NCBI RefSeq assembly: GCF_013372125.1
Contig: NZ_CP053826.1
Span: 248,001 to 312,000, forward strand
Reading direction: 5' to 3'
Origin: Campylobacter curvus
GTDB taxonomy: Bacteria > Campylobacterota > Campylobacteria > Campylobacterales > Campylobacteraceae
Length of the DNA: 64,000 nucleotides
Shown piece after piece: positions 1,122-5,009 of the stretch; positions within the stretch are counted from its first letter, which is position 1; each line of letters begins with the position of its first letter. The notes beneath the pieces were generated by a model. The model did no database searches. It saw nothing but the letters and a program-made list of their open reading frames with translations, and had not been told where the DNA came from. A program made the position numbers and the translations under genes.

Positions 1122-4100
1122 ATGATAACAAAAGAAAATTTACAAGAACTTGCGATTTTTCTAGGTTTCACAAAAGACAAGAAATGTGAATATTACGTTA
1201 GTGAAAATGGACTGGCGATAGACTTTGAAAATGAAAAACTAATATATCCTAAAGAACTTAAAAAGAGTGATGAGACTACATCAAATTTCTCACATAATGA
1301 AAATTTTGTTGTTTTTGAGTGTGTGAATGCACTTTTAGATTTAGGATACAAGCCTGAAAATTTAGAGATCGAGCCAAGATGGAAGCTTGGTAGAAGCACA
1401 AAAAGTGGTAAGGCTGATATTTTAGTTTGCGATCACTCAAAAAACGCTTATCTTATTATAGAATGTAAGACCTATGGGGACGAGTTTGAAAAAGAGTGGA
1501 ACAATATGTGTTCTAATGGCGGACAACTTTTTAGCTACGCTTGGCAGGAACAAAAGACAAAATTTATCTGCCTTTATGCGAGTGATTTTGACAAAAAACT
1601 AACTCATCAAAGTAAAATCATAAATATACAAAATATCTTTAAAGCATTTAGTCCGCAAAATAACGATGAGTTGGTTGCATCTTGGATAAATAATGGGAGT
1701 ATTTTTAACGAAAGTGGGATCTTTGAAAATAGTGAGCCTTATTTTATCGGCGAAGCTCGAAAAACGACACAAAATTTGCAAGATATTGGTGAGCAAATAG
1801 ATGAAAAATATAATAAATTCGCAACTATTTTAAGAAAACACAACATTTCAAGTAAGGAAAATGCCTTTGACAAGCTTGTTAATCTATTCTTATGTAAAAT
1901 CGTCGATGAGATCAAAAATAAAGATAATCTAAAATTTACCTATAAAGGTGATCTGGCTGATAGCTTTTTTGATATGCAAGACCGCCTAGAAGAGCTTTAT
2001 CAAATAGGTATGAAAGAGTTTTTAAATGAGGATGTTACCTATATAAATGACGACGCGATAGATCGCTCTTTTTTAGAATTTAAAGATAACGCCTTAAAAC
2101 AAACTATAAAAAAATATTTTTTAGAGCTTAAATTTTTCTCGTCAAACAACTTTGCTTTTTTGGAAGTTTATAACAAAGAGCTATTTAATAAAAATGCTAT
2201 CGTTTTAAAAGAGATTATTCAAGAATTTGAAAATTTACGTTTAAAAAGCAATAAGCCAAATCAGTTTTTAGGCAACCTTTTTGAGATGTTTTTAGATGGC
2301 GGTTTTCAGCAAAGCGAAGGGCAGTTTTTTACACCATTTCCGATAGTTAAATTTATCATCCGTTCGCTCCCGTTAAATGAGCTTATAGAAAATGATAAAA
2401 ATTTAAGTATCATCGACTATGCTTGTGGGGCTGGACACTTTTTGATAGAGTATGCAAACGAGCTTAAACACTACATTGCACCAAGTGAACTAAGTGCGTT
2501 TTACTCACAAATTTATGGCATAGAAAAAGAGTATCGCCTAAGCAAAGTTAGTAAAGTTTCAGCCTTTATGTATGGACAAGAAGATATAAATATAGTCTAT
2601 GCAGATGGACTTAAATCTCATAAAAATATAAAAGATGGCACTTTTTCGCTTCTTGTCGCAAACCCACCTTATAGCGTAAAGGGCTTTTTACAAACTTTGG
2701 ATGATGAAGATAGGCAAAAATTTAGCCTAAACGAATTTGCAAATGATGAAAGTAATAATATCGAATGCTTTTTTATCGAAAGGGCATATCAGCTTTTAAA
2801 GCCTCACGGTATCGCTGCTATTATTTTACCAAGTAGTTTTTTAAATAAATCCACTCCTAAAATTTATGAAAAAGCTCGTGAGATAGTGCTTAAAAATTTT
2901 AAGATCATAGCCATTTGTGAGCTGTCAAATAAAACTTTTGGCAAAACGGGCACAAACACTATAACATTGTTTTTAAAAAAGCGTTTTGAACCACCAAGAT
3001 ACGCCGATATATTGAGTGATAGAGCGATAAATAATTTCATAAACGATGATGGATATAAAGATGAAAATTTACTTGCTGATTATGCTAAATTTCAAGATTT
3101 TGACGAAAATGAGCTTGGCGAGTTTTTAAATAAAAATATTAAAAATACTATTTTTGAAAGTGAAATTTTTAAAGACTATGAAAGAGAATTTGAAAAATCA
3201 AATGCCTATAAAGAGCTTATAGGAAATTTTGATAAGCCAAAATTTAAACGCATTGAATTTGAAAAAACACCAGAATTTAAAGATATCAATAATGATAAGA
3301 AGGCACTAAATGAGGCGTTAAAAAATTTTAAAATACCGCAGTGGCGAAAGGATGAGCTTAAAAATGAAGCTTTTGTAAAATTTGCAAAAGAGATTGAGCT
3401 TGAAAAGATTTATTATTTTATTCTTGCAAAATCGCAACAAAATGTTTTAATTATCAAAAGTCCAACTGAAAATAAGGAGCAAAAAGAGTTTTTAGGCTAC
3501 GAGTGGAGCGAATCAAAAGGTAAAGAAGGCATAAAGCTTTTAAATAATGTAAGCATAAAAAACGACGAACTTGACGAAGCTCAAAAACAGATCATATCAA
3601 GCATCAAGGGAATGGATATTATAAATACGCCACTTTACAACCCAAAGGATAAAGATGACAATTTAAAATTAAGCTTTTTGATAAGGCAAAATTTTAATGC
3701 AGATTTAAAGCAAATCCCTGGAAATTTAACTAAATTTGCTAGTGTCTCTAAGCTAGTTGATATGATGGATTTTAAAAAGCCAAAATTTGATAAGGCGATA
3801 AATTTGAGTGTGAAAAGTAGTGTTGAAATAGTTAGTAAATTTCCACTTGTAAGGCTTGGAGAGTGTGGCGATTTTTTTATGGGTGGAACTCCGTCAAGAA
3901 ATATATCTCAATATTGGAATGGTGATATAAAATGGCTAACTATTGGTGATTATGCAAATTTTGATTTAATTTTAGATACAAAGGAAAAAATTACGGATCT
4001 TGGTATCCAAAATTCATCCGCAAAAGTAGTTAAATCGGGATGTATTGTAGTTTCTATTTATGCAACTATTGGTAGAGTTGGTATTTTGGGTTCTGACATG

Positions 4101-5009
4101 GCAACAAATCAAGCTATCGTAGCTTTAAAAGTTAATCAAAATTTTATAAATAAATATGTTATGTATTCGATTGACTATTTTAAATTTCAAATGTTTGACA
4201 AGACCATTACAACTTCTCAAAAAAATATCAATCTTGAAATATTAAAATCCATTAAAATCCCAAATCCGCCACGTGAAATACAAGAAAAAATAGTAGCTGA
4301 ATGCGAAAAAGTATATGACGAATTTAAAACAATAAGAATGGAAATTTCAGAGCTTAAAGCTAAAATGAGCGAAATTTTTTCAAAATTTGACATAAAATTT
4401 AGTCAAAATTCGGGGGGGGGGGGGGGACGACCCTATGATTTACTCAAAAATCTTGATATTATCTTTAATCCTTCAAAAGCTTTTATTAGGGAATTTGGTG
4501 ATGAAACTTTGGTGTCATTTGTGGATATGCAAAGTCTTAGCGAAGATGGATATATACAAAAACAGCAAATTAAGCCATTAGGTCAGCTGCGAAGTGGTAG
4601 TTATACTTATTTTGAGAAAAATGACATTGTATTAGCAAAGATAACACCTTGTATGGAGAATGGCAAATGTGCTTTTGCAGAAAATTTATCAACCGATATA
4701 GGACTTGGAAGTAGCGAATTTCATGTGCTAAGATGCAATAAAAATAAAATTTTACCAAAATTTCTATTTGGATTTTTAAATAGGCGAGATATTAGAGAAC
4801 AAGCTGCCAAGCGTATGACAGGAGCTAGTGGACATAGGCGCGTTCCTATTGATTTTTATAAAAATTTAGAGATTTGTACTCCACCACTTGAAATTCAATC
4901 TCAAATCATAGCTGAATTTGAAATTTTAGAAGCACAGATCAAAGTACGAGAAACCAAGCTAGAACAAGCACAAAACGCTTATAGTAAAATTCTAAATAAA
5001 TATTTATGA
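1122..5009 (+). CDS. Fused restriction-methylation-specificity protein (type IIG/type I-like), phase-variable
   Basis: A single 1295-residue polypeptide that should cut and methylate DNA. Residues about 70-130 look like a type I R-subunit N-terminal nuclease, with Asp99 and Glu114-Cys-Lys116 as a PD-(D/E)xK pattern. The centre is an N6-adenine methyltransferase with motif I DYACGAG (432-438) and motif IV NPPY (514-517). The C-terminus carries two type I S-like target-recognition domains, about 905-1080 and 1110-1290, each ending in a helical segment. A run of 15 G at residues 1097-1102 lies between them and is in frame as given. The gene is far richer in A+T than its neighbours, which suggests horizontal acquisition. 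No separate hsd genes are adjacent, so it appears self-contained. The recognition site cannot be predicted. Confidence 0.88.
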   Translation: MITKENLQELAIFLGFTKDKKCEYYVSENGLAIDFENEKLIYPKELKKSDETTSNFSHNENFVVFECVNALLDLGYKPENLEIEPRWKLGRSTKSGKADILVCDHSKNAYLIIECKTYGDEFEKEWNNMCSNGGQLFSYAWQEQKTKFICLYASDFDKKLTHQSKIINIQNIFKAFSPQNNDELVASWINNGSIFNESGIFENSEPYFIGEARKTTQNLQDIGEQIDEKYNKFATILRKHNISSKENAFDKLVNLFLCKIVDEIKNKDNLKFTYKGDLADSFFDMQDRLEELYQIGMKEFLNEDVTYINDDAIDRSFLEFKDNALKQTIKKYFLELKFFSSNNFAFLEVYNKELFNKNAIVLKEIIQEFENLRLKSNKPNQFLGNLFEMFLDGGFQQSEGQFFTPFPIVKFIIRSLPLNELIENDKNLSIIDYACGAGHFLIEYANELKHYIAPSELSAFYSQIYGIEKEYRLSKVSKVSAFMYGQEDINIVYADGLKSHKNIKDGTFSLLVANPPYSVKGFLQTLDDEDRQKFSLNEFANDESNNIECFFIERAYQLLKPHGIAAIILPSSFLNKSTPKIYEKAREIVLKNFKIIAICELSNKTFGKTGTNTITLFLKKRFEPPRYADILSDRAINNFINDDGYKDENLLADYAKFQDFDENELGEFLNKNIKNTIFESEIFKDYEREFEKSNAYKELIGNFDKPKFKRIEFEKTPEFKDINNDKKALNEALKNFKIPQWRKDELKNEAFVKFAKEIELEKIYYFILAKSQQNVLIIKSPTENKEQKEFLGYEWSESKGKEGIKLLNNVSIKNDELDEAQKQIISSIKGMDIINTPLYNPKDKDDNLKLSFLIRQNFNADLKQIPGNLTKFASVSKLVDMMDFKKPKFDKAINLSVKSSVEIVSKFPLVRLGECGDFFMGGTPSRNISQYWNGDIKWLTIGDYANFDLILDTKEKITDLGIQNSSAKVVKSGCIVVSIYATIGRVGILGSDMATNQAIVALKVNQNFINKYVMYSIDYFKFQMFDKTITTSQKNINLEILKSIKIPNPPREIQEKIVAECEKVYDEFKTIRMEISELKAKMSEIFSKFDIKFSQNSGGGGGRPYDLLKNLDIIFNPSKAFIREFGDETLVSFVDMQSLSEDGYIQKQQIKPLGQLRSGSYTYFEKNDIVLAKITPCMENGKCAFAENLSTDIGLGSSEFHVLRCNKNKILPKFLFGFLNRRDIREQAAKRMTGASGHRRVPIDFYKNLEICTPPLEIQSQIIAEFEILEAQIKVRETKLEQAQNAYSKILNKYL
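4412..4426 (+). repeat. Poly-G tract (15 G), contingency repeat
   Basis: Fifteen consecutive G lie inside the restriction-modification gene, in the linker between the two target-recognition domains. Gain of one G brings TGA into frame four codons after the tract. Loss of one G leads to TAG at 4579-4581. Long homopolymeric G tracts are the usual slippage-prone phase-variation sites in Campylobacter. The exact length may vary within a culture or be misread by sequencing. Confidence 0.92.

Follow-up and report, generated by a model that had tools for sequence, protein, structure and literature searches.

Within a window of 64,000 nucleotides of Campylobacter curvus DNA (the whole stretch analysed here), we found a run of exactly 15 G (G15) between the two half-S modules of a gene for a putative single-chain Type IIB/IIG-like restriction-modification (R-M) enzyme. 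The run is very likely a frame switch at the module boundary, and our best explanation for it is a slipped-strand contingency tract. A one-letter slip would probably swap a two-reader enzyme for a one-reader enzyme, possibly marking different DNA sites, a reading we adopt because a similar run occupies the same joint in many relatives.

A G15 tract within a single-chain restriction-modification gene

The initial annotation had described a fused restriction enzyme with a 15-G run dividing two S-like domains, and both parts of that description are borne out by the features below. We predict that the product belongs to the single-chain R-M enzymes with the RM-TRD1-TRD2 layout given for AloI and CjeI (TRD, target-recognition domain), because Pfam domains, an end-to-end PADLOC match, catalytic motifs and similarity to the solved chains 1yf2 and 8w0p all point to it; as in that layout, a PD-(D/E)XK nuclease, an NPPY methylase and two C-terminal half-S modules share one chain.

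1122-5009, + strand: single-chain restriction-modification gene (RM-TRD1-TRD2), 1295 aa; open reading frame, PADLOC REase_MTase_IIG PDLC03624
1338-1484, + strand: N-terminal PD-(D/E)XK nuclease region, DILVCDHSKNAYLIIECK; HSDR_N_2 (24.0 bits), motif search, alignment with RM.BsaXI
2265-3050, + strand: N6-adenine methylase domain with NPPY; PF02384 (1e-29), PF07669 (3.5e-13), NPPY motif search
3855-4388, + strand: half-S module 1, TRD1 plus helix D1; PF01420, 1yf2 alignment, half-S HMM positions 1-186 of 186
4412-4426, + strand: G15 tract encoding S-GGGGG, presumed slippage site; run scan, shuffles, frame translation
4436-4438, + strand: TGA reached with 16 G, after three sense codons (T-T-L); product 1105 aa
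4503-5003, + strand: half-S module 2, TRD2 plus helix D2, absent from both slipped products; half-S HMM positions 21-186 of 186
4579-4581, + strand: TAG reached with 14 G; product 1152 aa

The PADLOC model covers residues 1-1295 of the protein at 1192.5 bits. Pfam places N6_Mtase at residues 382-643 together with two Methylase_S stretches, and the solved chains that best match by sequence are a Type I S subunit (1yf2) and, for the N-terminal part, RM.BsaXI (8w0p). The nuclease profile falls just below the Pfam cut-off of 25 bits in the window protein, in which the PD-(D/E)XK pattern was found, and reaches 31.3 bits in the homologue from genome G009. A partner S subunit acting in trans was considered and set aside, since no second match to the window protein was found in its own genome at E 1e-3 among four of the eight first-look candidates. 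The family search gave one further match, to the methylase part alone, and a scan of genome contigs with the window protein returned one distant locus; neither the plasmid nor the phage collection held a locus covering 80% of the protein. Window positions 2001-4000, which lie wholly within the gene, have 30% GC compared to 38-52% elsewhere in 2-kb steps, consistent with horizontal acquisition. The flanking genes are, we presume, a carB-like gene and a 2-hydroxyacyl-CoA dehydratase-like gene.

The tract reads TCG (GGG)4 GGA CGA, or S-GGGGG-R at residues 1097-1103, and begins 24 nt past the end of half-S module 1 at residue 1089; it divides the two S-like domains, as the HMM match to module 1 stops at 4388 and that to module 2 opens at 4503. 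No other run of at least 9 G occurs on either strand of the window, and a chance origin is excluded, as 100 dinucleotide shuffles of the window gave no run of that length. Lying at codon 1097 of 1295, about 85% of the way through the gene, the tract leaves the catalytic domains and TRD1 upstream, and as a long in-frame simple repeat in which a change of length shifts the frame it has the form of a contingency locus. The same genome has nine further places with at least 9 G or C. Three of the five inspected (L001, L010 and L060, with G9, G9 and G10) lie at or near the 5′ end of frames for TonB-dependent receptors, as is typical of phase-variable surface genes, and the deep position of G15 stands out among the runs inspected because those three are near 5′ ends. 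At locus L061, also in this genome, C14 at 3128 marks the start of a short open frame, outer-membrane-like by eye, and lies ahead of an internal ATG, where it could affect expression.

Both stops that the initial annotation had predicted, an early TGA with one G more and a stop at 4579-4581 with one G fewer, occur as listed. Its expectation that loss of the second domain would spare nuclease, methylase and one TRD is likewise upheld, in that both slipped products would retain all three along with helix D1 and would lack TRD2. We consider unlikely its suggestion that slippage might split restriction from methylation, given that the two catalytic domains precede the run and would share the same TRDs.

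Tracts and reading frames among homologues

We collected relatives using the RM part of the protein (residues 1-700) as query at a match threshold of 1e-60. In the window's family, at least 23 of 153 genomes had an RM match, its own genome included (up to seven candidates scored per genome), and in the phylum, drawn evenly, at least 68 of 397 genomes did (up to two candidates per genome). The two genome sets overlap, and two more genomes (G110 and G113) were added from another search. The 71 relatives and the window make 72 loci, with L059 (G014, a separate S gene) left out, and a home-made HMM recognises a first half-S module in 69 of these, which leaves out L103, L147 and L149 (no half-S module).

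Of the 69 homologues whose first module is complete, the window among them, 27 have at least 8 G in a row after module 1 and 42 have no such run at that joint. By family, the joint run is found in 15 of 22 genes in f1 (the window's family, which we take to be Campylobacteraceae), 12 of 29 in f13 (presumably Helicobacteraceae) and none of 18 elsewhere, so that the joint tract is recurrent across two bacterial families. Runs start 4-109 nt past the end of module 1 and, with one genome per species, are 8-15 G long between species, plus one of 33 in L125 that may be an assembly fault. Loci L043 and L105 carry G6 and were scored as tract-less. So was L115 (G351), whose contig stops 23 nt past module 1; its near twin G265 has G10 there, and short-read assemblies may hide such G runs.

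Counting all G/C runs of at least 8 inside gene segments (n=36), we found 26 in junction 1, seven at the 5′ end, two in the linker before TRD1, one in the RM part and none inside the half-S modules. Junction 1 makes up only 14.0 of 290 kb (4.8%) and yet contains 26 of the 36, a concentration that is plain even though kinship among the genes makes any formal P value much too small. The fetched stretches held 41 such runs altogether, of which five fell outside the counted segments (L122 G15, upstream of the RM match; L125 G11; L132 G14 and G8; L145 C11). The two linker runs, G15 at 3054-3068 of L112 and G13 at 3069-3081 of L114 (oriented coordinates), lie just ahead of TRD1, where slippage would delete both TRDs.

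These positions bear on plain ON/OFF phase variation, in which RM-TRD1 would be inactive or unstable and the run would merely silence the enzyme, an explanation we regard as a substantial possibility that is nonetheless less probable than not being the case. An off-switch is most effective close to the start codon, but the joint holds far more of the runs than the 5′ end does, and purely silencing runs could sit anywhere, whereas here they sit at the boundary of half-S modules. Three genes (G410, G330 and G216, the last broken elsewhere) carry a 5′-end run besides the joint run, a two-tract layout resembling the on/off and specificity tracts of H. pylori JHP1272; if the switch is real, such members would have three states (off, one-TRD and two-TRD).

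Frame states were scored in 26 tract-bearing genes rather than 27, because L132 has no downstream module on its contig. The downstream module is in frame in 19 of the 26 and out of frame in seven (G009, G072, G196, G410, G352, G319 and G378), compared to 37 in frame and two out (G071 and G261) among 39 tract-less genes (Fisher P=0.024 for the out-of-frame counts, kinship not corrected). In-frame alleles are also commoner than one third (P=4e-5, kinship not corrected), suggesting that in many cases it is the long form that is favoured. This excess speaks for ON/OFF silencing and against a switch of specificity, since it would follow if usefulness lay with the long form. The RM-TRD1 frame is nevertheless intact in six of the seven out-of-frame genes, which counts against ON/OFF silencing; the exception, G378, has its break in module 1. 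Gene decay was partly rejected as a complete explanation, because the RM-TRD1 frame is uninterrupted in 21 of the 26 tract-bearing genes, with other breaks in five (G017, G076, G175, G216 and G378).

On a tree of RM parts (68 sequences, a quick method, some long branches), the seven out-of-frame genes need seven changes, the maximum possible, compared to a mean of 6.8 for shuffled labels; such unclustered states are what rapid, reversible switching should produce. G009 (G8, out of frame) sits beside G017 (G9, in frame, broken further upstream) and then G010 (G10, in frame). Compared between out-of-frame G009 and in-frame G010, module 2 has a dN of 0.184 and a dS of 1.333, and it is under constraint in G009. 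Between G261 and G352, dN/dS is near 0.1 in the RM part (0.035/0.337) and TRD1 (0.021/0.211) and 0.18 in module 2 (0.064/0.355), which lends no more than mild support to a role beyond silencing, because both genes are out of frame now and the run was perhaps lost recently. Both frame states thus exist in nature among relatives.

Slipped frames also tend to end quickly. In 43 of the 52 frames that do not lead into TRD2, a stop lies no more than 18 nt from the tract, compared to 49% of 6120 background draws, where background distances are taken from a random base and observed distances from the tract end (comparable within about 3 nt, kinship not corrected). The window has half of this clean-stop pattern, because one slipped frame reads 153 nt before its first stop; the other reads 10 nt. 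Short forms also occur where no run of at least 8 G is present, in G261 (run lost) and G071 (G6), both out of frame, and in G403, which has a single module and whose frames beyond it resemble unrelated genes. Three half-S modules are present in 15 of the 69 homologues (for example L105, L109, L123, L126, L128 and L139), and the 1803-residue G195 protein has three Methylase_S stretches within one frame; in a gene that combines three modules with the joint run behind module 1, slippage would toggle between one TRD and three.

The two TRDs reassort independently among close relatives: G167 and G076 match in TRD1 (98%) and differ in TRD2 (20%), and G167 and G178 match in TRD2 (99%) and differ in TRD1 (27%). 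The motifs described for C. jejuni CjeNII (GAGN5GT) and its IA3902 counterpart (GAGN5RTG), both with methylation of both strands in the available text, are consistent with two TRDs of which one is in common, in enzymes that may belong to the window's family. Reassortment on either side of the run is what would be seen if its glycines did no more than link the modules flexibly, or if it served to anchor recombination that swaps TRDs. This explanation is extremely improbable: glycine can be encoded without pure GGG, the conserved helices would make better anchors, the gap between the run and the following module ranges from 12 to 554 nt, and in seven of the 26 tract-bearing genes the downstream module is out of frame. 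A change of target spacing by three-G steps, in the manner of the helix repeats of EcoR124I, was considered as well and is unlikely because of the same variation in the glycine stretch.

What the short form may do

With 15 G (or 12, or 18), the gene would encode RM-TRD1-TRD2 in the AloI/CjeI layout, a long form that should methylate an asymmetric, bipartite site and cleave there. Gain or loss of one G would yield RM-TRD1 ending behind helix D1 with a short or roughly 50-residue out-of-frame tail; we infer that this short form would pair through D1 as a homodimer with the HaeIV layout and recognise a symmetric bipartite site derived from the TRD1 half-site. Slippage would thus alter the methylated and restricted motif, beyond mere silencing. 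We favour a switch between AloI-like and HaeIV-like forms because half-S modules can dimerise, HaeIV is an RM-TRD homodimer and the short form ends behind D1. Taken whole, with its change of motif, this switch is in our judgement just barely probable, and we give an even chance to the short form being active with a new motif. Slippage in culture and the stability, dimerisation and activity of the short form we likewise infer.

The weak step of this mechanism is D1-D1 pairing. Identity between D1 and D2 over the last 50 residues of the modules is 29.6% in tract-bearing genes versus 31.5% in other genes, so that this comparison gave no special D1 self-pairing signal in tract-bearing genes; pairing of D1 with itself is without sequence support because the helices are only about 30% identical, and no more so where a tract is present. 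In G403, the one homologue with a single TRD, the final helix looks to be of the D2 type. In the available text of one review (PMC3874165 / PMC4081073), Type IC half-S subunits can dimerise and read a palindrome, with EcoDXXI, truncations of EcoR124I and NgoAV as examples, and half-S homodimers are reported for Type IC only.

The low similarity between D1 and D2 also fits ON/OFF silencing, as does H. pylori JHP1422, a Type I S protein of which TRD1 plus helix alone was inactive and TRD3 alone worked, according to the portions available of that report (PMC3936762). The same portions describe BcgI-like H. pylori systems in which a G13 frameshift in S went with no detected activity, a case confounded by a missing S start codon, the main cause stated (PMC3936762). 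The poly-G tract of C. jejuni cj0031, another Type IIG enzyme gene that an in-frame poly-G splits, has a published on/off role in the text available (PMC4889913); that tract, however, lies at 2573 of 3732 bp (about 69%), relatively further upstream than the tract at about 85% in the window gene, which does not have a tract well upstream with a large C-terminal loss. A further point against a switch of specificity is the danger of self-restriction when a specificity that is new acts together with a nuclease. The proposal of the initial annotation that slippage might change the target site rather than simply switch the gene off thus stands in part: the recurrent run at one joint (27 of 69), the three genes with both runs and the three short forms without a run speak for a role beyond silencing, whereas the inactive TRD1 of JHP1422 and the dissimilar helices speak against it.

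A short form could also be active without dimerising, as a monomeric Type IIG-like enzyme modifying a short TRD1 half-site on one strand. MmeI, Eco57I and many other Type IIG enzymes with a single TRD work in this way, whereas half-S TRDs of Type I and IIB act paired in the systems reviewed (PMC3874165 / PMC4081073, in the parts available); half-sites of a few base pairs would moreover be expected to give a very frequent cut site, and we consider a monomer improbable. A very improbable alternative is that the run also slips in transcription or translation, so that long and short chains coexist in one cell, may mix and supply extra RM domains. Fifteen G is long, and the shortage of RM domains per TRD in AloI and CjeI is called a mystery in the available text of one review; the single-chain enzyme TstI, reported to be a homotetramer, offers a partial answer that needs no short form (PMC3874165 / PMC4081073), and the joint lacks a run of at least 8 G in 42 of the 69 homologues.

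If the AloI-like to HaeIV-like switch is true, one homopolymer would alter both methylation and cutting, and the expression programme and phage-restriction profile would switch together. The family would also hold natural one-TRD and two-TRD versions of one protein, which bear on how AloI/CjeI-type enzymes serve two recognition domains with one catalytic unit, a question raised in the accessible parts of PMC3874165 and PMC4081073.

Comparison with known systems

Switching of specificity by a homopolymer is already published, as far as the available parts of the papers go, for NgoAV (PMC9577141) and for JHP1272/HP1353-HP1354 (PMC3936762). In NgoAV, a Type I system of N. gonorrhoeae, poly-G slippage in hsdS1 changes GCAN8TGC to GCAN7STCA (PMC9577141). 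The poly-G there lies at the end of the first S half and toggles a one-TRD and a two-TRD specificity protein, and the window gene similarly has a homopolymer between TRD1 with its helix and TRD2; in NgoAV, however, R, M and S are separate subunits, whereas the window enzyme has nuclease, methylase and both TRDs in one chain. The Type IIG enzymes JHP1272 and HP1353-HP1354 of H. pylori are single chains whose specificity shifts as a late homopolymer brings a C-terminal recognition domain in or out of the product, and JHP1272 also has an earlier on/off homopolymer. As described in the available text, they differ in being MmeI-like, with a contiguous target, a small CTRD and C repeats, and in having no Type I-like half-S pair (PMC3936762). 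The BcgI-like systems HP1471/HP1472 and JHP1364/JHP1365 resemble the window gene in being Type IIB with a G13/G14 repeat in the specificity gene and are called prone to phase variation; they differ in that S is a separate gene and, in the parts available, the short S has no specificity assigned and the place of the repeat within S is not given (PMC3936762).

Among Campylobacter genes, phase-variable homologues of the cj1051c group are reported in 22 genomes of several species, in a text whose available parts do not state the tract site or a role for the truncated product (PMC6321876). Likened by description, that group and the window gene probably share the same broad family. Among the matches listed in the open-licence literature, taken by titles and starts of abstracts, we found no report of poly-G between the TRDs of a single-chain Type IIB enzyme, and there is a weak case that this placement, its recurrence in two families and the AloI-to-HaeIV reading are absent from that literature.

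The closest likenesses in layout are AloI, CjeI, PpiI and TstI, which have RM-TRD1-TRD2 in one chain of about 1250 aa, and HaeIV, an RM with one TRD whose homodimer works on a symmetric bipartite site, which is what we predict for the short form; for both groups the available descriptions mention no switching, and for the former no tract (PMC3874165, PMC4081073). The window gene would differ from all of these as a one-G converter of an AloI/CjeI-type into a HaeIV-type enzyme, and with it a phase-variable methylome of two motifs from one gene, with restriction coupled to it and the same joint used in two families, a claim we put forward tentatively and hold a little short of probable.
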